DNA from: Salinivenus iranica
GTDB lineage: Bacteria; Bacteroidota; Rhodothermia; Rhodothermales; Salinibacteraceae
DNA: 36,112 nucleotides
Direction of reading: 5' to 3'
Assembly: GCA_002894665.1 (NCBI GenBank)
Contig: NCRB01000024.1
Coordinates: forward strand, 1-36,112
The notes beneath the pieces are model-generated. The model had not been told where the DNA came from. It was given only the letters and a program-made list of their open reading frames with translations, and did no database searches. A program made the translations under genes and the position numbers. This document shows positions 27,567 to 34,953 of this stretch, in pieces. Every line of letters begins with the position of its first letter. The first letter of the stretch is position 1.

Positions 27567-28424
27567 GTGCCCGTGCCGCCTCCTGGTCCGCCCAACGCCT
27601 CCCGGACGCATCGCACCCCCGCCGGCTCGCTGGGCTACACGGACGTCGGCTCGGGGCCCACTGTGGTGTTTCTGCACGGCAATCCCACGAGCGCGCACCT
27701 GTACCGCCACCTCCTCGCGGCCCTTCGACCCGACTACCGCTGCGTCGCTCCCGACCACCTCGGCTTCGGCCGGTCGGCCGCTCCCCCTGGAGGGTCGTAC
27801 CGTCCCCCCGCCCACGCAACCCGGGTCGAGCACCTGCTTCGCCACCTCGGGCTCACGGACATCACGCTCGTGCTCCACAACTGGGGCGGCCCCATCGGCC
27901 TCTCCTACGCCCTCCGGCACCCCGAGACCGTGCGGGGCCTCGTGTTGATGAATACATGGGCCTGGCCCCTCACGCACCGTCCGCTCGTTCGCCTGTTTGG
28001 GCGCCTCGTCGACACGAAGGGGGGGCGAATGCTGTTCGAGCGACACAACCTGTTCGCCCGCGCCGTGATGCCCTGGACCACGGGCCCCGCCTCGTCCGGC
28101 GACTGGATCGACGCCTACGCCGCCGCCCTTAACACCCGCCCCCGCCGCCGCGCCTGCTGGACCTTCGCCCGGAGCCTGATCGCCGAAACTCCGTGGCTGC
28201 GGGCCCTCTGGACCGACCGCCCCCGCCTGCCAGACGTCCCCGCGCTGTTGTGCTGGGGAATGGCCGATCCGGCCTTCGGCTCCGAGCCGTGCCTGCGTCG
28301 GTGGCAGTCCCTGCTCCCCTCCGCCCGCATCCATCGGGCGCACGGCGTGGGCCACTACGTGCCCGAGGAGATGGGCGCCGACCTGGTCCCGCCCGTCCGG
28401 TCGTTTCTTGCGTCGACCCGTTAA
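27567..28424 (+). CDS. Alpha/beta hydrolase, haloalkane dehalogenase-like with Asn at the nucleophile position
   Basis: A 285-residue cytoplasmic alpha/beta hydrolase close to haloalkane dehalogenases. The oxyanion-loop motif FLHGNPTS is at 35-42 and CVAPDHLGFGRS at 59-70. The nucleophile elbow reads LVLHNWGGPIG (101-111), with Asn105 where dehalogenases have Asp and the halide-binding Trp106 kept. The acid is probably D234 (GMADPAFG) and the His is H263 (GVGHYVPEE). With Asn the enzyme could be inactive, could autodeamidate to Asp, or could have another activity. The start is GTG 27567 (or GTG 27573), since no ATG precedes the homologous region. It is 8 bp after the WYL regulator gene. Confidence 0.85.
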   Translation: MPVPPPGPPNASRTHRTPAGSLGYTDVGSGPTVVFLHGNPTSAHLYRHLLAALRPDYRCVAPDHLGFGRSAAPPGGSYRPPAHATRVEHLLRHLGLTDITLVLHNWGGPIGLSYALRHPETVRGLVLMNTWAWPLTHRPLVRLFGRLVDTKGGRMLFERHNLFARAVMPWTTGPASSGDWIDAYAAALNTRPRRRACWTFARSLIAETPWLRALWTDRPRLPDVPALLCWGMADPAFGSEPCLRRWQSLLPSARIHRAHGVGHYVPEEMGADLVPPVRSFLASTR

Positions 28425-28452
28425 GCCCCCCGGCCCGCCGGCCCGCCGGCTC

Positions 28453-28472
28453 AGCGGGATGTCCTTCCCGCT
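28453..28472 (+). terminator. Hairpin after the hydrolase gene, possible terminator
   Basis: A perfect 7-bp stem AGCGGGA/TCCCGCT with loop TGTCCT lies 28 bp after the hydrolase stop codon. It is preceded by a short GC repeat (two copies of CCCGCCGG). No T-run follows, so termination would be weak or factor-dependent. Confidence 0.35.
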
Positions 28473-28632
28473 CTATCGGGATGCCGTCTGTGGAAACCCA
28501 GGGCAGCTCGCCCACCTCCTGTCCCCCTCCGCTACGTCCACGGGCTGGAGATCGATGTCGAGCGGGCCCGCTGTCGGTGTCCTCCGAACACGCCAGAGGA
28601 AGACCCAACGTACGAAAGATTTCGTGAAGGGA

Positions 28633-28662
28633 TTGGGGTTGGGCATGCTCACCATCTACGTT
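28633..28662 (+). promoter_or_regulatory. Possible promoter of the cobalamin-riboswitch transcript
   Basis: TTGGGG (28633-28638) and TACGTT (28657-28662) are separated by 18 bases. This would place the transcript start about 20 bases before the aptamer. The match is imperfect and the promoter consensus of this phylum differs from that of E. coli, so this is only a candidate. Confidence 0.28.
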
Positions 28663-28689
28663 AAGACTAGTTCTTTCACACACGCCGCG

Positions 28690-28997
28690 GGTTCTTGCGC
28701 CGGACCTGCTCCGGCCAAGATGAAAAGGGAACGCCAGTGTCGCCTCGTGCGAGTGGTGCGCAATGACCGATCGCTTGCCGGTCGGAATTCGCCACTTGCG
28801 AGGGGCCAGTCTGGGGCTGTACCCGCAACTGTAATCCGAATCATGGACTGACCTTATCCCGATGGGTCCCACTGCGCTTGCGAAGTCGCTCCCCGAGCGG
28901 CTTGCAGTCGCGGGAAGGGCACGCGTCGGGCCCAGTCCTTGCTTGCCGGCTCCCACGCCGGAAGCTCGTTCGGAGAGCCAGGAGACCTGCCTGCGTG
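28690..28997 (+). ncRNA. Cobalamin riboswitch
   Basis: A B12-sensing leader RNA that controls the downstream receptor gene. Conserved core parts are in order: AAAAGGGAACGCCAGTGT (28723-28740), GGGGCTGTACCCGCAACTGT (28813-28832) and the B12 box AGCCAGGAGACCTGCCTGCG (28976-28995). Ligand binding usually lowers expression by hiding the ribosome site or forming a terminator. The aptamer spans about 308 nt, longer than the usual 200 or so. The reasons are an inserted long stem (28743-28803) and a long segment between the core and the B12 box. The expression platform and a Shine-Dalgarno hairpin follow up to 29184. Confidence 0.93.
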
Positions 28998-29143
28998 CGT
29001 GACACGGCGTCCGGCCCGTGCCGGATGGCCGTTCATTGCCAACTCCCTCCGGGATTAGAGGTTGGTGGCGTGCCCCGCTCTGCCCCACGGATGCGCGTAG
29101 GTGCCCCCTTCGTATCCGTCCGGTGCCATTCGACAGAGCAGCC

Positions 29144-29171
29144 GCCCGCACCTCACATCTGAGGGGAGGGC
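29144..29171 (+). promoter_or_regulatory. Hairpin covering the Shine-Dalgarno sequence of the BtuB-like gene
   Basis: CCTCA (29151-29155) and TGAGG (29160-29164) form a perfect stem with loop CATC. Outer bases GCCC (29144-29147) and GGGC (29168-29171) can extend it. The purine-rich ribosome site GGAGGG (29165-29170) lies in or next to this stem. This fits the translation-control platform of a cobalamin riboswitch. The site is 8 bases before a TTG at 29179 and 14 before the ATG at 29185. Confidence 0.5.
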
Positions 29172-29184
29172 ATTTTGATTGTTT

Positions 29185-31173
29185 ATGGCTGCTCCGTCCC
29201 GATCCACATTGCGTCGCCGATCCGTCCCGTGTCGGATCGTTGCCCTTCTTACGGCCTGCGGCCTAGCCCTGCTGGCCGGATGTCTGGCCCGCCCGGTCGC
29301 GGCCCAGGTCCCCGACTCGCTGTCCGCCGACACGGCCGACACCGCCTGGCGGACTGCGCTCCCGCCCCTCACCGTGACCGCCACGCGCGTCCCGGCGGCC
29401 CCGTCGCAGGCACCGGCCCGCATCAGGGTCCTCGACTCAACCGCCCGGGCCCAGACGGGAGCCACGTCCGTCTCCGAACTGCTGGAGGAGCGCGCCGGCC
29501 TCCACGTCCGCCAGTACGGCCCCGGCGGGCTCGCGACCGTCTCCCTGCGGGGGACCGGCGCCTCCCAAACGGCCTTTCTGCTGGACGGGCACCGCATCGG
29601 AAACCCCCAACTGGGCCAGCTCGACCTCCGCCTTCTGCCGACGATGCTCCTCTCCTCCGTGGAGGTCATGCACGGACCGGCCTCGCCCCTGCACGGGAGC
29701 GACGGGATTGGGGGCGCCGTGCACCTGCGCTCGCGCCGTCCCACCGCTCCGCTCCAGGCCCGCGCCTCGGTGCAGGGGGGTGCCTTCGGCAGCCGGTCGA
29801 CGAACGTGCTGCTCGGCGGGGAGGGCACTCAGACCTCGGTCGTAGCCGCGGCCGAGTATCGGTACACCGACGGCGACTTTCCCTACACCGACGAGGCCCT
29901 CTTTCCGCCCCGCACGGTGCGCCGCCAGAACGCCGACCGTGAACACCTGAGCATCTACTCGTCCGTCCGCACCCGATGGGCGAACCACAACCTGCGCGTC
30001 GCCGGGTGGGCCACCCGGGTGGAGCGCGGCCTCCCCGGCCCAAGCATCACGGCCGCCAGCGACGAGCGGCAATGGGACACCCAGCTCCGCCTCTGGGCCG
30101 ACGACACGATCCAGCAGCCCTGGGGCACACTCAGCCTCGGCGGCCTCGTCCAGCACGGCCGCCTCCGCTACGCCGACCCCGACCAGAACCTCGATCAGAC
30201 GGGCCGCACGTGGCGCTCCTCGCTGGAAGCCGAGGCGCGCGTGCCGCTGGCCGGCCGGTGGCTCGTGACGGGAGGCATCACGACCGCCCGAGCAACCGCC
30301 CGTCACCCCCGCCTCGAACAGGACGCCCACGAGCAACAGGGGGCGGCCTTCGTGAGTGGGCGCGGGACGTGGGGCCGACTCCGCCTCTTTCCCGCGGTCC
30401 GCCTCGACATCTACCACATGCCGGGGGCCGACACCTACGGATCCGTGAACCCACGGCTGGGGATCAACTGGCAGCCCCTTTCGGGCGTGGAGGGCGTTCG
30501 GGTGAAGGCCCACGCGGGCCGCGCCTTTCGCACGCCCACCCTCAATGACCGCTACTGGCAACCCGGCGGGCGACCGGACCTGCGCCCCGAGCGAGGGTGG
30601 AGCGTGGATGCAGGGGCCCTGTGGAACGGACCCCACGGTCGCGTGGAAGCCTCCGTCTTCGCCAACTGGCGACGCGACCAGATCGTGTGGCGCCCCTCGA
30701 GCAACGGATCCTGGCGCCCCGCCAACGTCCAGCGGGTGCGCGCCCGCGGCTGGGAGCTTTCCGCCGAGCGGCAGTGGCGCCTCCCCGGCGCGGTCCAGCT
30801 CGACGCCGGACTCACCTACACCTACACCGACGCCCGCAACCGCTCCGCCCCCGACGCCGACACCTACAACGCCCCCCTCCGCTACGTCCCCCGCGACCAG
30901 ATGAAGCCCCACCTCACCGTCTCGTGGGGCCCGGCGGCCCTCGACCTGAACGCTCGCTACACCGGCCGCCGGTACGTCACCAGCGACGGCAGCCGCTCCC
31001 TGGACCCGTACGTGCTCCTAGACGCCCAAGTGCGGCTCTCCCACCGCCTCGGCGGCGTCCAGGGCACCGCCTCGGCCCAGCTCGAAAACGCCCTCGACAC
31101 CGACTACACCGTCGTCAACAACCACCCCATGCCGCCTCGCCATCTGACCCTGCGGCTCACCGCTTCCTTCTGA
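29185..31173 (+). CDS. btuB: TonB-dependent outer-membrane cobalamin receptor (BtuB-like)
   Basis: A 662-residue outer-membrane receptor, the size of BtuB, that imports cobalamin using TonB energy. A signal segment (IVALLTACGLALLAGCLARP) precedes a TonB-box-like LPPLTVTATRVP. The plug domain is read in SVSELLEERAGLHVRQYGPG, VSLRGTGASQTAFLLDGHRI and VEVMHGPASPLHGSDGIGG. The barrel runs from about residue 180 to the end and closes with LRLTASF, with a C-terminal Phe. Substrate is assigned from the cobalamin riboswitch 190 bp upstream. The start is uncertain: ATG 29185 is listed, but the Shine-Dalgarno sequence at 29165-29170 fits the in-frame TTG at 29179 better (two extra residues). The BtuG-like gene follows after 89 bp. 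Confidence 0.93.
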   Translation: MAAPSRSTLRRRSVPCRIVALLTACGLALLAGCLARPVAAQVPDSLSADTADTAWRTALPPLTVTATRVPAAPSQAPARIRVLDSTARAQTGATSVSELLEERAGLHVRQYGPGGLATVSLRGTGASQTAFLLDGHRIGNPQLGQLDLRLLPTMLLSSVEVMHGPASPLHGSDGIGGAVHLRSRRPTAPLQARASVQGGAFGSRSTNVLLGGEGTQTSVVAAAEYRYTDGDFPYTDEALFPPRTVRRQNADREHLSIYSSVRTRWANHNLRVAGWATRVERGLPGPSITAASDERQWDTQLRLWADDTIQQPWGTLSLGGLVQHGRLRYADPDQNLDQTGRTWRSSLEAEARVPLAGRWLVTGGITTARATARHPRLEQDAHEQQGAAFVSGRGTWGRLRLFPAVRLDIYHMPGADTYGSVNPRLGINWQPLSGVEGVRVKAHAGRAFRTPTLNDRYWQPGGRPDLRPERGWSVDAGALWNGPHGRVEASVFANWRRDQIVWRPSSNGSWRPANVQRVRARGWELSAERQWRLPGAVQLDAGLTYTYTDARNRSAPDADTYNAPLRYVPRDQMKPHLTVSWGPAALDLNARYTGRRYVTSDGSRSLDPYVLLDAQVRLSHRLGGVQGTASAQLENALDTDYTVVNNHPMPPRHLTLRLTASF

Positions 31174-31262
31174 CGGAGAATCGTCTTGAGTGCGGATTTC
31201 ACTTGTTTCCTCGTTGCCCTCACGGGCTGCTCCCCACTCCCCACCATTCCCCCCATTCCTCT

Positions 31263-32345
31263 ATGCGCTCTCGCGTCTTTCTCCCGCTACTGCTCGCCGT
31301 TTTGCTCCCCGTAACGCTCGTCGGGTGCGACCTGCTCGGCTCCGACGATTCCGGCTCCGCTACCGCCAGCGGCGTCTACGTCGCCAACGGCGGCGGCTTC
31401 GGCAACCAGAACGCAAGCCTAACGCTCTACGACCCCGAGACCGATGCCACCCAAACGCTCCCGTCCGACGGCTCAGGCTTCGCCTCCTACATCCAGAGCC
31501 TCACCCTGAGCAACGACCGGCTGTTCGTGGTCTTCGGCGAAACGGGCACCGTCGACCGCTACAGCCCCGAAACGGGAACCCAAAGCGGACAAATTCGCGG
31601 CATTCCCAACCCCCGCTACGTCGCAATAGATGGAAATACCGCGTACATTACCAGCCAGGACTACGGCCCCGATCCCTCCGACCTCGACGTGGTGGACCTC
31701 TCCACCAACACAGTCGTCGACTCTGTAAACGTGAGCGGCACGCCCGAAGACGTGGCGGTGGCCGACGGACGCGTGGTGGTGGCCCTGGGCGGGTTCAACG
31801 CCGGATCGAGCGTCGCCCTCGTCTCGCCGAGCGACCTGAGCGTGGAAACGCTGGACGTCGGCTGCACCGGCCCGCGCTCGCTCGTCGCCGACGCCGAGGA
31901 CGAGGTCCACGTCTTCTGCACCGGCCGCCCCCCCTCCGAAAACGCCGACGGCGTGCCCGGCGAAGTGGTTACCGTCGATCCGTCGGCCGGCAGCGTCACG
32001 GGCTCCGTTGAGCTGTCCACCCAGATTGCCTCCGAAAGCCTGGCCCAGTATGTGTCCTACAGCGCCGCCGCGGACGAGGCCCACGCCATCCTGGCCACGG
32101 GCGAGCTGTTGCGCTTCGATGCGGCCACGAACAGCGTAGCCGACCGGGTCGACGTGTCCGGCGCGCCCGTCGGCGCCGTGGCGTACAGCCCCTCCACCGA
32201 GCGGCTGTTCGTGGGGCGACTCGCAGCCTCGGGCAACCCCTTCTCCACCCCTGGCACCGTGACCATCCACGAGCGCGACGGCACCGCCCTCGACACCCTC
32301 GCGGCCGGCGTCGCTCCCTCCCACATCATCGTCGATCGCGAATAG
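31263..32345 (+). CDS. Surface lipoprotein beta-propeller, BtuG-like cobalamin-binding protein
   Basis: A 360-residue lipoprotein with lipobox LVGC and Cys22 after a good signal peptide. The acidic sequence after the Cys (DLLGSDDSGS) could act as a surface-export signal as in Bacteroidota. The rest consists of YncE/YVTN-type propeller repeats: DLDVVDLSTNTVVDSVNVSG then TPEDVAVADGRVVVALGG, and GEVVTVDPSAGSVTGSVELS. Two Cys residues (GCTGPRS and VFCTG) may pair. In Bacteroides, BtuG is a surface propeller that captures B12 with extreme affinity and hands it to BtuB. This gene follows a riboswitch-controlled btuB, so the same role is inferred. Direct homology to BtuG was not tested. Confidence 0.82.
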   Translation: MRSRVFLPLLLAVLLPVTLVGCDLLGSDDSGSATASGVYVANGGGFGNQNASLTLYDPETDATQTLPSDGSGFASYIQSLTLSNDRLFVVFGETGTVDRYSPETGTQSGQIRGIPNPRYVAIDGNTAYITSQDYGPDPSDLDVVDLSTNTVVDSVNVSGTPEDVAVADGRVVVALGGFNAGSSVALVSPSDLSVETLDVGCTGPRSLVADAEDEVHVFCTGRPPSENADGVPGEVVTVDPSAGSVTGSVELSTQIASESLAQYVSYSAAADEAHAILATGELLRFDAATNSVADRVDVSGAPVGAVAYSPSTERLFVGRLAASGNPFSTPGTVTIHERDGTALDTLAAGVAPSHIIVDRE

Positions 32346-32370
32346 CCGCCCGGCCCGCTCCCGTTCCCCC

Positions 32371-32589
32371 ATGCCCATCGACCGCTGCTACTGCTACCAG
32401 CAAACCTTCGCGACGCTCAAGGAGGTCGCCGACGAAACGGGGGCCGCGTCCGTCGAGGCCCTGCAGGAGCACGTTCGCTTTGGCCAAAACTGTGAGCTGT
32501 GCCACCCCTACGTCCGGCGCATGCTGGCAACGGGACAGACCTCCTTCGACGAGGTGATCCGGGCGGAGGACAATTCCGCGGAGGCGTAG
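32371..32589 (+). CDS. BFD-type [2Fe-2S]-binding domain protein
   Basis: A 72-residue small protein with four Cys in the bacterioferritin-associated ferredoxin pattern: C6 and C8 (CYC) and C41 and C44 (CELC), with a helical middle (LKEVADETGAASVEALQEHV). BFD-like domains bind a [2Fe-2S] cluster and pass electrons or help mobilise metal ions. The gene begins 25 bp after the BtuG-like gene. That makes it the third gene of the riboswitch-led unit, and a role in reduction of imported corrinoid is conceivable. It could equally serve iron metabolism unrelated to B12. No signal peptide is seen, so it is cytoplasmic. Confidence 0.87.
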   Translation: MPIDRCYCYQQTFATLKEVADETGAASVEALQEHVRFGQNCELCHPYVRRMLATGQTSFDEVIRAEDNSAEA

Positions 32590-32659
32590 CCCGGAGCAAC
32601 CTCCCGGACGGCGGCTCGTACGGGCACCTGTAGTGGCTCGCTCACCCGTTCTCGCCCCC

Positions 32660-33403
32660 ATGGCCTCGCTCCTCTACGTCTTTCCGCACCCCGACGACGA
32701 ATGCTTCGGCCCGGCCCCCGCCCTGGCCCGCCAGCGCCGGGCCGGGCACGAGGTGCACCTGCTCACGCTCACCCGGGGCGAGGCCACGGCGCAGCGCGAG
32801 CGGCTCGGCCTCTCGAAAGCCGAAATGGCCGAGACGCGGTACACCGAGATGCAGGACGTCGCCGAGGCGCTCGACCTCACGTCGCTTGCCGTCCGGGAAT
32901 ACGCGGACGGTGAGCTGGCCGAGTGCAACCCCCTGACGCTGGAGGATGAGATTGCGATCCACATTCACGAGACGCAGCCCGACGTCGTCGTCACCTATCC
33001 GGTACATGGCATCAGTGGGCACCCCGATCACCTCGTGACACACGCCGTAGTGAAGCGTGTGGCCTGCGCCCTCCGCGCCGACGGGGCGGCCCACCCCCAG
33101 CGGCTGGCCTTTTTTACACTCCCCCCACCCGCGGACGACGCCGACCGGCCCGGCCACCTGCAGCACTCGCCCGAGGCCCTCATTGATTGCGTCGAGTCCG
33201 TGTCGGACGCGGACATGGCGACCGCCCGCGAGGCCCTCTACTGCTACGAGACCTACCGCCCGGTCATCGACGAGCACCAGCCTCTTCGCAGCGTGGGCAC
33301 CCGCATTCGGTTTGAGATCTTTGGAGAGACGCATGATCCCCCGCTCCCGTCCCTCACGGACGGCCTGCAGGCGCCCGCGGACGCCCCATTGGTTTCAGAA
33401 TGA
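32660..33403 (+). CDS. PIG-L family deacetylase
   Basis: A 247-residue zinc-dependent N-deacetylase of the PIG-L/LmbE fold. The metal site is complete: FPHPDDE with H10 and D13 near the start, and the later SGHPDH motif with H121 and H124. The family removes acetyl groups from N-acetylglucosamine conjugates, as in bacillithiol or mycothiol biosynthesis (BshB, MshB). The LTLTRGEA segment after the first motif is typical. Thiol biosynthesis is possible, but no bshA or bshC gene is nearby. It starts 70 bp after the BFD-type gene and ends 99 bp before the histidine kinase gene. The ATG at 32660 is placed directly before the family start. Confidence 0.9.
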   Translation: MASLLYVFPHPDDECFGPAPALARQRRAGHEVHLLTLTRGEATAQRERLGLSKAEMAETRYTEMQDVAEALDLTSLAVREYADGELAECNPLTLEDEIAIHIHETQPDVVVTYPVHGISGHPDHLVTHAVVKRVACALRADGAAHPQRLAFFTLPPPADDADRPGHLQHSPEALIDCVESVSDADMATAREALYCYETYRPVIDEHQPLRSVGTRIRFEIFGETHDPPLPSLTDGLQAPADAPLVSE

Positions 33404-33502
33404 TAATCGCCCCCTCCGGTCTTCCGGGGAACGCCCATCTGGGGCGGCCGCGTACGATCCAGTGTGAAATTTTTTGCGATCTTCCGCGCCCACACGGCCC
33501 CC

Positions 33503-34558
33503 ATGGTGTCCGAGCGGTGGCTGCCCTCCGTCGTCAATCGTCTCGCCCTCCGGATCGCCCTCGCGGTGGCGGGGGTCGCGATCGGCATCCTGTGGATGCT
33601 CACCGGGGCCGGGGAAAGCCTGGGCGGCGGCGCGGCCTGCGGCCTGGCGACCTATCTGATTGGCCACCTCGCCCTGCACCGCCGCCTGCGCCACGCCACC
33701 TCCACGCTCCGCCGGATTCGGCAGCACGACTTCGAGGACCTCACCCCGCCCGCCTCCGCCCCCTCCGACGAGCTCGGCACCCTGCTCCGCGAGCTCTACC
33801 GGACGGGCCAGACCCTGGAAAACGAAATTCAGGAGCTGAAGGCCATGGAAAGCTACCGGCGCGAGTTTATCGGGAATGTCTCGCACGAGCTCAAAACCCC
33901 GATCTTCTCCATCCAGGGCTTTACCGAAACGCTCCTCGACGGCGCCCTGAACGACGAAGCGGTGAATCGCTCCTTCCTCGAAAAAATCGCCCACAACGTC
34001 AACCGCCTCGAAACGCTCGCCCACGACCTGTCGGCCATCACAAAAATCGAGACGGGCGAGATGGACATGTCGTCCCAGCGGATCGTGGTGGACGACCTCT
34101 TCGACGCGGTCGTCGAGTCGCTGGAGCTGAAAGCCGACCAAAACGACGTGATCCTTCAACGCCAGCCCGCAAACGGCCTGCCGCCCGTCTACGGCGACCG
34201 CGACCGCATTCGGCGCGTCCTCGTCAACCTGGCCGACAACGCCATCAAGTACAACGATGCGGGCGGCACCGTCACGCTCCAGGCGGCCGCCCCCTCGCCG
34301 GGCGAGGTGGAGTTCCGAGTCGTTGACGACGGCATCGGCATTCCGACGGAGCATCTTCCCCGCCTCACGGAACGATTCTACCGGGTCGACCAGAGTCGCT
34401 CTCGCAACCGCGGGGGGAGCGGGCTGGGACTGGCCATCGTGAAACACATTCTGGGGGCCCACAACCGCACCCTTCACGTAGAGAGCACCCCGGGCGAGGG
34501 CTCCACCTTTAGCTTTACGCTCCCGACCGACCCACAGACGTCTCTCTCCTCTACCTAG
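33503..34558 (+). CDS. Membrane sensor histidine kinase, PhoR-like
   Basis: A 351-residue sensor kinase. Two helices (about 15-35 and 41-58) are separated by only a few residues, so there is almost no periplasmic sensor domain. A HAMP-like stretch follows (RLRHATSTLRRIRQHDFEDL). The HisKA domain has the H-box GNVSHELKTPIFSIQGF with phosphoacceptor H128. The ATPase domain has the N-box NLADNAIKYND (N246), DDGIGIP (275-281), the F-box-like RFYRVDQSRSRN and the glycine box GGSGLGLAIVKH. The PhoR-type architecture suggests phosphate or envelope sensing. No response regulator is adjacent in the window. The ATG at 33503 is chosen; a GTG at 33464 would add 13 residues. Confidence 0.92.
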   Translation: MVSERWLPSVVNRLALRIALAVAGVAIGILWMLTGAGESLGGGAACGLATYLIGHLALHRRLRHATSTLRRIRQHDFEDLTPPASAPSDELGTLLRELYRTGQTLENEIQELKAMESYRREFIGNVSHELKTPIFSIQGFTETLLDGALNDEAVNRSFLEKIAHNVNRLETLAHDLSAITKIETGEMDMSSQRIVVDDLFDAVVESLELKADQNDVILQRQPANGLPPVYGDRDRIRRVLVNLADNAIKYNDAGGTVTLQAAAPSPGEVEFRVVDDGIGIPTEHLPRLTERFYRVDQSRSRNRGGSGLGLAIVKHILGAHNRTLHVESTPGEGSTFSFTLPTDPQTSLSST

Positions 34559-34589
34559 CACGGCCGCTATGCCTTCGTCTTTGCCGCCC

Positions 34590-34614
34590 ACCACGGGCAG
34601 ATGCATCCCGTGGT
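34590..34614 (+). terminator. Hairpin after the histidine kinase gene, possible terminator
   Basis: A perfect 8-bp stem ACCACGGG/CCCGTGGT with a nine-base loop lies 31 bp after the kinase stop. It is followed by a T-rich stretch (ATGAAGTTTGATTTT) rather than a pure T-run, so a weak intrinsic terminator is possible. Confidence 0.4.
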
Positions 34615-34621
34615 ATGAAGT

Positions 34622-34649
34622 TTGATTTTGAGATGCAATGTCCTACAAT
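34622..34649 (+). promoter_or_regulatory. Candidate promoter upstream of the microprotein gene
   Basis: TTGATT (34622-34627) and TACAAT (34644-34649) are spaced by 16 bases in an AT-rich patch that stands out in this GC-rich sequence. Transcription would start near 34656, about 45 bases before the ATG at 34700. The match to a sigma-70 promoter is good. Confidence 0.5.
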
Positions 34650-34699
34650 AACGTACCCCTTCGTTCTGGATTGTCTCGCCTCCAGGCGATCTCCCCACC

Positions 34700-34792
34700 A
34701 TGGAAAATCCGATTGACCGCACGATCCGCCTGCTGGCACTCGCCGCGGGCCTCGTGAGCCTCGCTGTATTTTTTGTCTTCCATTTTGTCTAG
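34700..34792 (+). CDS. Small single-helix membrane microprotein (30 residues)
   Basis: A short frame encodes 30 residues: a polar start MENPIDRTIR followed by a hydrophobic helix LLALAAGLVSLAVFFVFHFV up to the TAG stop. The shape, with a short charged head then about 20 apolar residues, is that of small membrane regulators or subunits. A good promoter lies 50 bp upstream and a terminator-like hairpin just before that, so it could be an independent gene. No Shine-Dalgarno sequence is visible, in line with many genes here. It is separated from the kinase gene by 141 bp and from the GroES-like gene by 161 bp. Coding status is inference and no homologue is known to me. Confidence 0.5.
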   Translation: MENPIDRTIRLLALAAGLVSLAVFFVFHFV

Positions 34793-34953
34793 CCTCGTGG
34801 CAACCCGACGCCGCGTGGCTTTAAACCGGGTTGGACGACGAGCCTCGCCGACGGGTGTCCGTTTTCGCGAAACCTCGGCGGACCGACGAACCTGCGTCCG
34901 CAGGCCTCGTTAGGGGTGCTTGTCGTGTTCTTACCGCCCTCATGTATCCTTCT

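Follow-up and report, generated by a model that had tools for sequence, protein, structure and literature searches.

What does a small iron-sulfur protein do in a locus for the uptake of vitamin B12, and how many of the genes around it belong there? The question arises from a stretch of 36,112 nucleotides of Salinivenus iranica, a whole contig (G000:C50; NCBI NCRB01000024.1) referred to here as the window, in which a cobalamin riboswitch leads five genes on the same strand, encoding a BtuB-like receptor, a BtuG-like beta-propeller, a BFD-type [2Fe-2S] protein, a PIG-L deacetylase and a histidine kinase. The first-pass annotation had listed this order with gaps of 89, 25, 70 and 99 base pairs; the Rfam score and domain searches bore out the gene content, and the gaps were reproduced when the ATG starts were used. 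We propose, with a probability of about 0.42, that the locus is a riboswitch-controlled unit for B12 capture, import and processing in which the BFD-type protein serves as electron donor to corrinoids. The features on which this proposal depends are the following.

28673..29008, plus strand: cobalamin riboswitch aptamer (RF00174; 57.2 bits against a gathering score of 31.5, E 8e-12, full model 1-189)
29136..29194, plus strand: hairpin predicted by folding to pair the Shine-Dalgarno-like GAGGGGAGG ahead of btuB, a candidate translational expression platform
29179..31173, plus strand: BtuB-like TonB-dependent outer-membrane receptor, 664 residues; TTG start, with an ATG at 29185
31263..32345, plus strand: BtuG-like beta-propeller lipoprotein by sequence and predicted fold, 360 residues; lipobox LVGC, with an acidic stretch after Cys22
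32371..32589, plus strand: BFD-type [2Fe-2S] protein, 72 residues; Fer2_BFD domain, cysteine pattern CxC-x32-CxxC, by eye without a signal peptide

Conservation of btuB, the propeller gene and the BFD gene

To the sample of 60 genomes of the window's order, its own included, the riboswitch model gave a match in 55, and the BFD protein and the propeller in 49 each. Gene order was compared in 49 BFD loci from 48 other genomes (one genome has two), and upstream genes were counted in the 38 loci with at least 5.5 kb of upstream sequence, leaving out 11 loci with too little. A riboswitch and btuB lie 5' of the BFD gene in 36 of the 38, with an Rfam score above the cut-off at that position in all 36, and the propeller gene does so in 34; among the exceptions, G029 and G053 have btuB directly before the BFD gene and no propeller, and G033 and G044 have neither. 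The BFD gene follows btuB or the propeller gene at least once in 11 of the 12 BFD-bearing families, with only the propeller present on the contig in family f11. Furthermore, btuB was found upstream in 26 of 35 named loci, a set that overlaps the main one, and three of the remaining nine stop at a contig edge. Five further genomes of the order have a BFD match, and of the two inspected G278 has btuB and the propeller gene whereas G331 has no btuB upstream. The arrangement is thus the common B12 locus of the window's order.

The genes further out behave differently. In tblastn comparisons, cpn10 (10 loci), WYL (6) and UDG (4) neighbours were found in own-genus loci only, and a hydrolase on the same strand in five loci (four of the own genus and one of the same family), with one further weak match on the opposite strand; these counts are lower bounds, as the stretches compared differ in length. 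Since the three genes stay together across the order while their outer neighbours are almost limited to the genus, they very probably form one conserved B12 unit, as the first-pass annotation had supposed for a halophile outside the gut Bacteroides; the comparison of gene order that it had called for thus found the BFD gene co-conserved with both btuB and the propeller gene. That the genes adjoin merely through close kinship is hardly credible. Own-genus genomes do have much gene order in common, but the same order recurs in relatives, which argues against chance, and the linkage holds in families whose full-length BFD proteins, outside the window's own family, are only 47-66% identical to that of the window. 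At close range, the BFD protein is 94% identical in Salinivenus lutea (L081) and G001 shares the remaining locus proteins at 97-99% identity. The mere presence of a riboswitch was uninformative as a discriminator, as 288 of 296 genomes of the phylum have one.

Several of the loci carry additional genes. In six of them (L067, L070, L071, L072, L074 and L077) the propeller and BFD genes are separated by genes for a DUF6580 membrane protein and for a BtuF-like binding protein, identities checked with Pfam on one of each. Outside the order, family f16 has the order btuB, propeller, BFD, DUF6580 (L143 and L144), and L150 of family f51 has riboswitch, propeller, btuB, DUF6580, MetH, BFD, P-loop protein, deaminase and a CobO-type protein, the last of these over the Pfam cut-off and under that of the NCBIfam equivalog (111 against 168 bits). 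DUF6580 (PF20221) thus occurs in B12 loci in three separate gene orders, and the data point to it as a candidate B12-linked membrane protein; no publication naming DUF6580 was found in the literature searched.

Riboswitch, receptor and propeller

The riboswitch is the single RF00174 match in its genome by covariance-model search, and position 28690, where the first-pass annotation began the locus, falls 17 bases within the aptamer. Folding of 29120-29205 gave -34.5 kcal/mol (z -2.94), a stability equalled in 2 of 200 shuffles. No terminator-like site was found in 28000-34900, where shuffled sequences gave 3.3, and transcript ends could not be placed; the promoter scan returned a single sigma-70-like site, at 34622, 3' of the kinase gene. 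Bacteroidota-type promoters lie outside the scope of the scan used for promoters and terminators. As the predicted hairpin pairs the Shine-Dalgarno-like element and no terminator-like site was found, we infer that the riboswitch acts on translation of btuB, a statement that applies to btuB and does not include the genes downstream.

The receptor has plug and barrel domains over the Pfam cut-offs, and its best matches in the PDB are the BtuB-type chains 8bmx, 8p97, 8p98 and 8blw of Bacteroides complexes, followed by E. coli BtuB. It scores below the NCBIfam equivalog cut-off for TIGR01779 (136 against 599.7 bits), which is still the best of 24 models. For the propeller, a sequence search of the PDB put the same Bacteroides surface proteins on top (best E 6e-9), and the AlphaFold2 model, with a mean predicted local distance difference test score (pLDDT) of 87, has as its top 16 structural matches BtuG chains or 3dsm of B. 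uniformis (E 2e-20 to 1e-17; the next 2.6e-14), at 17-19% identity to BtuG in the structural alignments. The window propeller falls under the Pfam gathering score for DUF5074 (22.4 against 27.2 bits), a cut-off passed by three of seven propellers of relatives (32.3, 34.2 and 27.9 bits). As in BtuG loci, its gene adjoins btuB, with a cobalamin riboswitch in control. The fold predicted for the protein is that of BtuG, and the pairing would extend capture of the BtuB-BtuG type well beyond the gut Bacteroides, to halophile relatives of Salinibacter.

The N-terminal signal of the propeller reads LVGC-DLLGSDD, a lipobox cysteine followed by acidic residues which, by analogy with surface lipoproteins of the phylum, may serve as a surface-export signal. 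The protein of L061, 98% identical, shows the same lipobox, and 33 of the 45 propellers compared from relatives fit a simple lipobox pattern. Of the 12 negative by pattern, six (L033, L035, L041, L046, L051 and L058, from families f9, f10 and f12) were examined, and all six carry a C-terminal type A sorting domain of the type IX secretion system (TIGR04183) over the cut-off, with the Pfam model of this tail over its cut-off in three of five propellers checked; starts were chosen by script, so that absence of the lipobox is mostly unproven. The tails suggest that in some lineages type IX secretion is a second route of the capture propeller to the surface, in place of lipidation. Moreover, in an alignment of 21 propeller sequences C219 is invariant and C201 is present in at least 90%, which suggests that the two form a structural disulfide.

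Possible role of the BFD-type protein

The BFD-type protein scores 31 bits for Fer2_BFD against a cut-off of 26. Its cysteines C6, C8, C41 and C44 are invariant in alignments of 43 and 35 rows, which also show the conserved segments CHPYVRRML and TG-x-T-x-F. The predicted structure (pLDDT 88) has its nearest fold in Bfd, weakly (E 0.06 with a probability of 0.99, none below 0.001), and a PDB sequence search gave chance-level matches only. We considered it very improbable that the protein acts as a genuine Bfd (bacterioferritin-associated ferredoxin) in the release of stored iron. The Pfam family and the four top structural matches, all of them P. aeruginosa Bfd, speak for that assignment, as do weak matches to the bacterioferritin model in 25 of the 60 genomes, the own genome included (25.7 bits); the structural likeness itself is weak, however, and bacterioferritin (TIGR00754, cut-off 125.55) is over the cut-off in none of the 60 genomes, the best score being 42.6 bits, whereas two of 14 control genomes pass. 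For lack of a bacterioferritin over the cut-off, the iron-store role was rejected as the leading explanation.

In B12 users for which no dedicated corrinoid reductase is known, the means of reducing Co(II) corrinoid is a gap met repeatedly in accounts of B12 assimilation. A small redox protein encoded within the uptake locus, as in most of the order's families sampled, is a direct candidate for this step. Potential recipients are encoded in the window's own genome. PduO is over the cut-off there and in 54 of the 60 genomes of the order, and the best model for an adjoining ABC ATPase is that of a corrinoid transporter. The class II ribonucleotide reductase NrdJ scores 440 bits against a cut-off of 399.95, and because this cut-off also lets through the verified class I enzyme of L192 (412 bits, with an NrdA score of 744), the low NrdA score of the own genome's enzyme (239 against 341 bits) serves as a second ground for the assignment. 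Reading the protein as a redox donor is based on Fer2_BFD, the invariant CxC and CxxC motifs and a fold nearest Bfd, together with PduO and NrdJ in the same genome.

The proposed sequence of events is as follows. A shortage of coenzyme B12 would lead the riboswitch, by the logic of its family, to permit btuB and its neighbours to be made, and the surface propeller would capture corrinoid and hand it over to the BtuB-like receptor, as homology to BtuG and BtuB suggests. The 72-residue BFD protein, presumably cytosolic, would then give single electrons, reducing the imported Co(III)/Co(II) corrinoid, and the PduO-type adenosyltransferase could form the coenzyme B12 on which the class II ribonucleotide reductase depends; in relatives that have MetH, the same electrons might also reactivate that enzyme. 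Both the co-transcription of the unit and the electron-donor role of BFD are presumed in this scheme. A bolder version would make the BFD proteins a new kind of electron donor dedicated to corrinoids: free-standing mini-ferredoxins of the [2Fe-2S] type, regulated together with B12 uptake, that reduce newly imported cobalamin for PduO/CobO and reactivate MetH in place of flavodoxin, throughout the order and outside it. This is possible and at present rather doubtful. As narrower candidates, a MetH-specific donor was rejected as a general role despite the adjacency of MetH and BFD in L150, and a CobO-specific donor was rejected since the 92 genomes matched by PF02572 all lie outside the window's order and class, and the order has PduO.

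A number of observations weigh against the electron-donor proposal. The likeness of the BFD model to Bfd is weak, as given above; the ABC ATPase next to PduO is under the cut-offs for both the corrinoid transporter (277 against 537 bits) and BtuD (142 against 281 bits); and the activation domain of MetH was found in none of four genomes of the own genus, so that MetH is not a general partner. PduO and riboswitch-btuB loci are present in families f14 and f15, and the BFD protein is unmatched in six of their six genomes (one of the set, G039, has no riboswitch match). Within the order, G044 and G331 have a BFD gene without btuB upstream, in genomes without a riboswitch match, and in G033 the BFD gene stands with PIG-L, regulator and kinase genes about 78 kb from the btuB-propeller locus, with no riboswitch match near. 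Of 44 loci compared in families f17-f20, finally, 28 have the BFD homologue behind dcd and 26 have it ahead of an RsmE-type gene, in stretches without btuB (both gene names were checked with hidden Markov models on L161 only).

These exceptions bear on another explanation, that the protein is a general [2Fe-2S] carrier or Fe-S helper which became fixed in the B12 operon through simultaneous need and does not act on corrinoids, working instead, for instance, in the metabolism of nucleotides or rRNA. This is a possibility to be taken seriously, albeit a less than even one: besides the dcd-linked loci, BFD homologues without btuB occur in families f40, f43 and f54, and the gene is kept in G044 and G331. 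On the other hand, the repeated linkage with differing B12 genes (btuB and propeller, BtuF-like, DUF6580, MetH and CobO type) is against it, as is a tree of 95 BFD proteins in which B12-linked and dcd-linked sequences lie on opposite sides with a single B12-linked exception (L058), a tree of few columns that is indicative only. The first-pass annotation had named unrelated contexts of the BFD, PIG-L and kinase genes in close relatives as evidence against a unit; for the BFD homologue such a context exists in the sister lineage of families f17-f20, behind dcd, and within the own order the BFD gene almost always stands behind a riboswitch and btuB. Since the sister-lineage homologue follows dcd, the role of the protein need not be B12-only.

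The loci L149-L182 of families f17-f20 share, in 28 cases, a conserved neighbourhood of dCTP-deaminase type, BFD and RsmE-type genes, a context of nucleotide and rRNA modification. The lineage is tentatively Balneolaceae-like, as L114 (Balneolales) groups with L161 in the BFD tree. We also observed a second cobalamin riboswitch over the cut-off before class I ribonucleotide reductase genes in L192 (G028), L189 (G033) and L190 (G037), followed in G028 by the gene for the B12-independent methionine synthase MetE, as if B12 switched between B12-free and B12-using enzymes. In addition, L209 (G003:C1:174709-177552) contains an NrdE-prime type gene with an intein (LAGLIDADG over the cut-off, the intein-splicing match below it), and some 1.5 kb upstream, before an NrdB-type gene, there is a sub-cut-off riboswitch match (29.2 bits).

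Downstream genes and comparison with known systems

Two further genes follow the BFD gene in the window.

32633 (GTG) or 32660 (ATG)..33403, plus strand: PIG-L (LmbE-like) deacetylase; PF02585 99.7 bits against a cut-off of 28.2
33464 (GTG) or 33503 (ATG)..34558, plus strand: PhoR/PnpS-like histidine kinase with a short membrane anchor; HisKA and HATPase_c over their cut-offs

The PIG-L protein is under both bacillithiol deacetylase cut-offs (BshB2 56.3 against 195.25 bits, BshB1 33.6 against 182.5 bits). The kinase had been described as having almost no sensor domain, and indeed HisKA starts at residue 132 with a short hydrophobic stretch before it. If all five genes formed one B12 regulon, the kinase might be a sensor of B12 or its status, with the deacetylase trimming a corrinoid or cell-surface conjugate, a reading that we consider unlikely. 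In its favour, PIG-L adjoins BFD in 24 of the 43 loci that extend 2 kb or more downstream, across families f1, f3, f8, f10 and f13; the kinase gene is downstream in 18 of the 36 loci with at least 5.5 kb; and both stay with BFD in G033 though btuB is elsewhere. However, PIG-L is not beside BFD in the other 19 loci, its orthologue lies away from BFD in G015, G017 and G025 (G018, where BFD ends the contig, was left out), and in G012 there is another copy away from the locus. By score the kinase is PhoR/PnpS-like, and its gene follows one for a response regulator in eight of the 18 loci, which is eight of the ten outside the own genus. The kinase looks like one member of a regulator-kinase pair and is probably a regulatory module of its own, and PIG-L and the kinase gene appear to be long-standing conserved neighbours, separable from the B12 unit, so that the caution of the first-pass annotation about their membership was fair.

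Set beside known systems, the kinase resembles PhoR and PnpS in its scores (250 and 271 bits) and its short N-terminal part, and differs in falling below both curated cut-offs (334.2 and 400 bits) and in having no response regulator gene between PIG-L and the kinase in the window. The BFD protein shares with Bfd its size, CxC/CxxC motif and predicted fold, and is set apart by its link to B12 genes, its own conserved segments and the lack of bacterioferritin over the cut-off in the 60 genomes. Flavodoxin systems reduce corrinoids for adenosylation or for reactivation of MetH. The corrin reductase PduS (PMC2982820) is likewise reported to send electrons to Co(II) corrinoid, as the BFD protein would. 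The latter has no known homology to PduS or flavodoxin and is a 72-residue Fer2_BFD protein without a flavin domain.

Among the literature matches listed, from a search that mostly left subscription papers outside, none reported a BFD gene as part of a B12 locus, and no publication combining cobalamin riboswitch, 2Fe-2S, btuB and BFD was found in the literature searched. The BFD-containing locus would thus be a variant of the BtuBG-type B12 locus that we did not find reported before. The papers on the Bacteroides BtuB-BtuG loci (PMC6143338, PMC8941943 and PMC10404256) likewise describe a cobalamin riboswitch and a btuB gene adjoining that of a surface propeller lipoprotein, and the word 'ferredoxin' is absent from the main text available of these papers. 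The first-pass annotation had called the window's locus not a standard one, which stands in comparison with the Bacteroides loci and does not hold within its own order, where the arrangement is the norm. In comparison with Bacteroides, the window's locus adds a BFD-type [2Fe-2S] gene inside the unit, and some propellers of its relatives, unlike Bacteroides BtuG, bear a type IX secretion tail.

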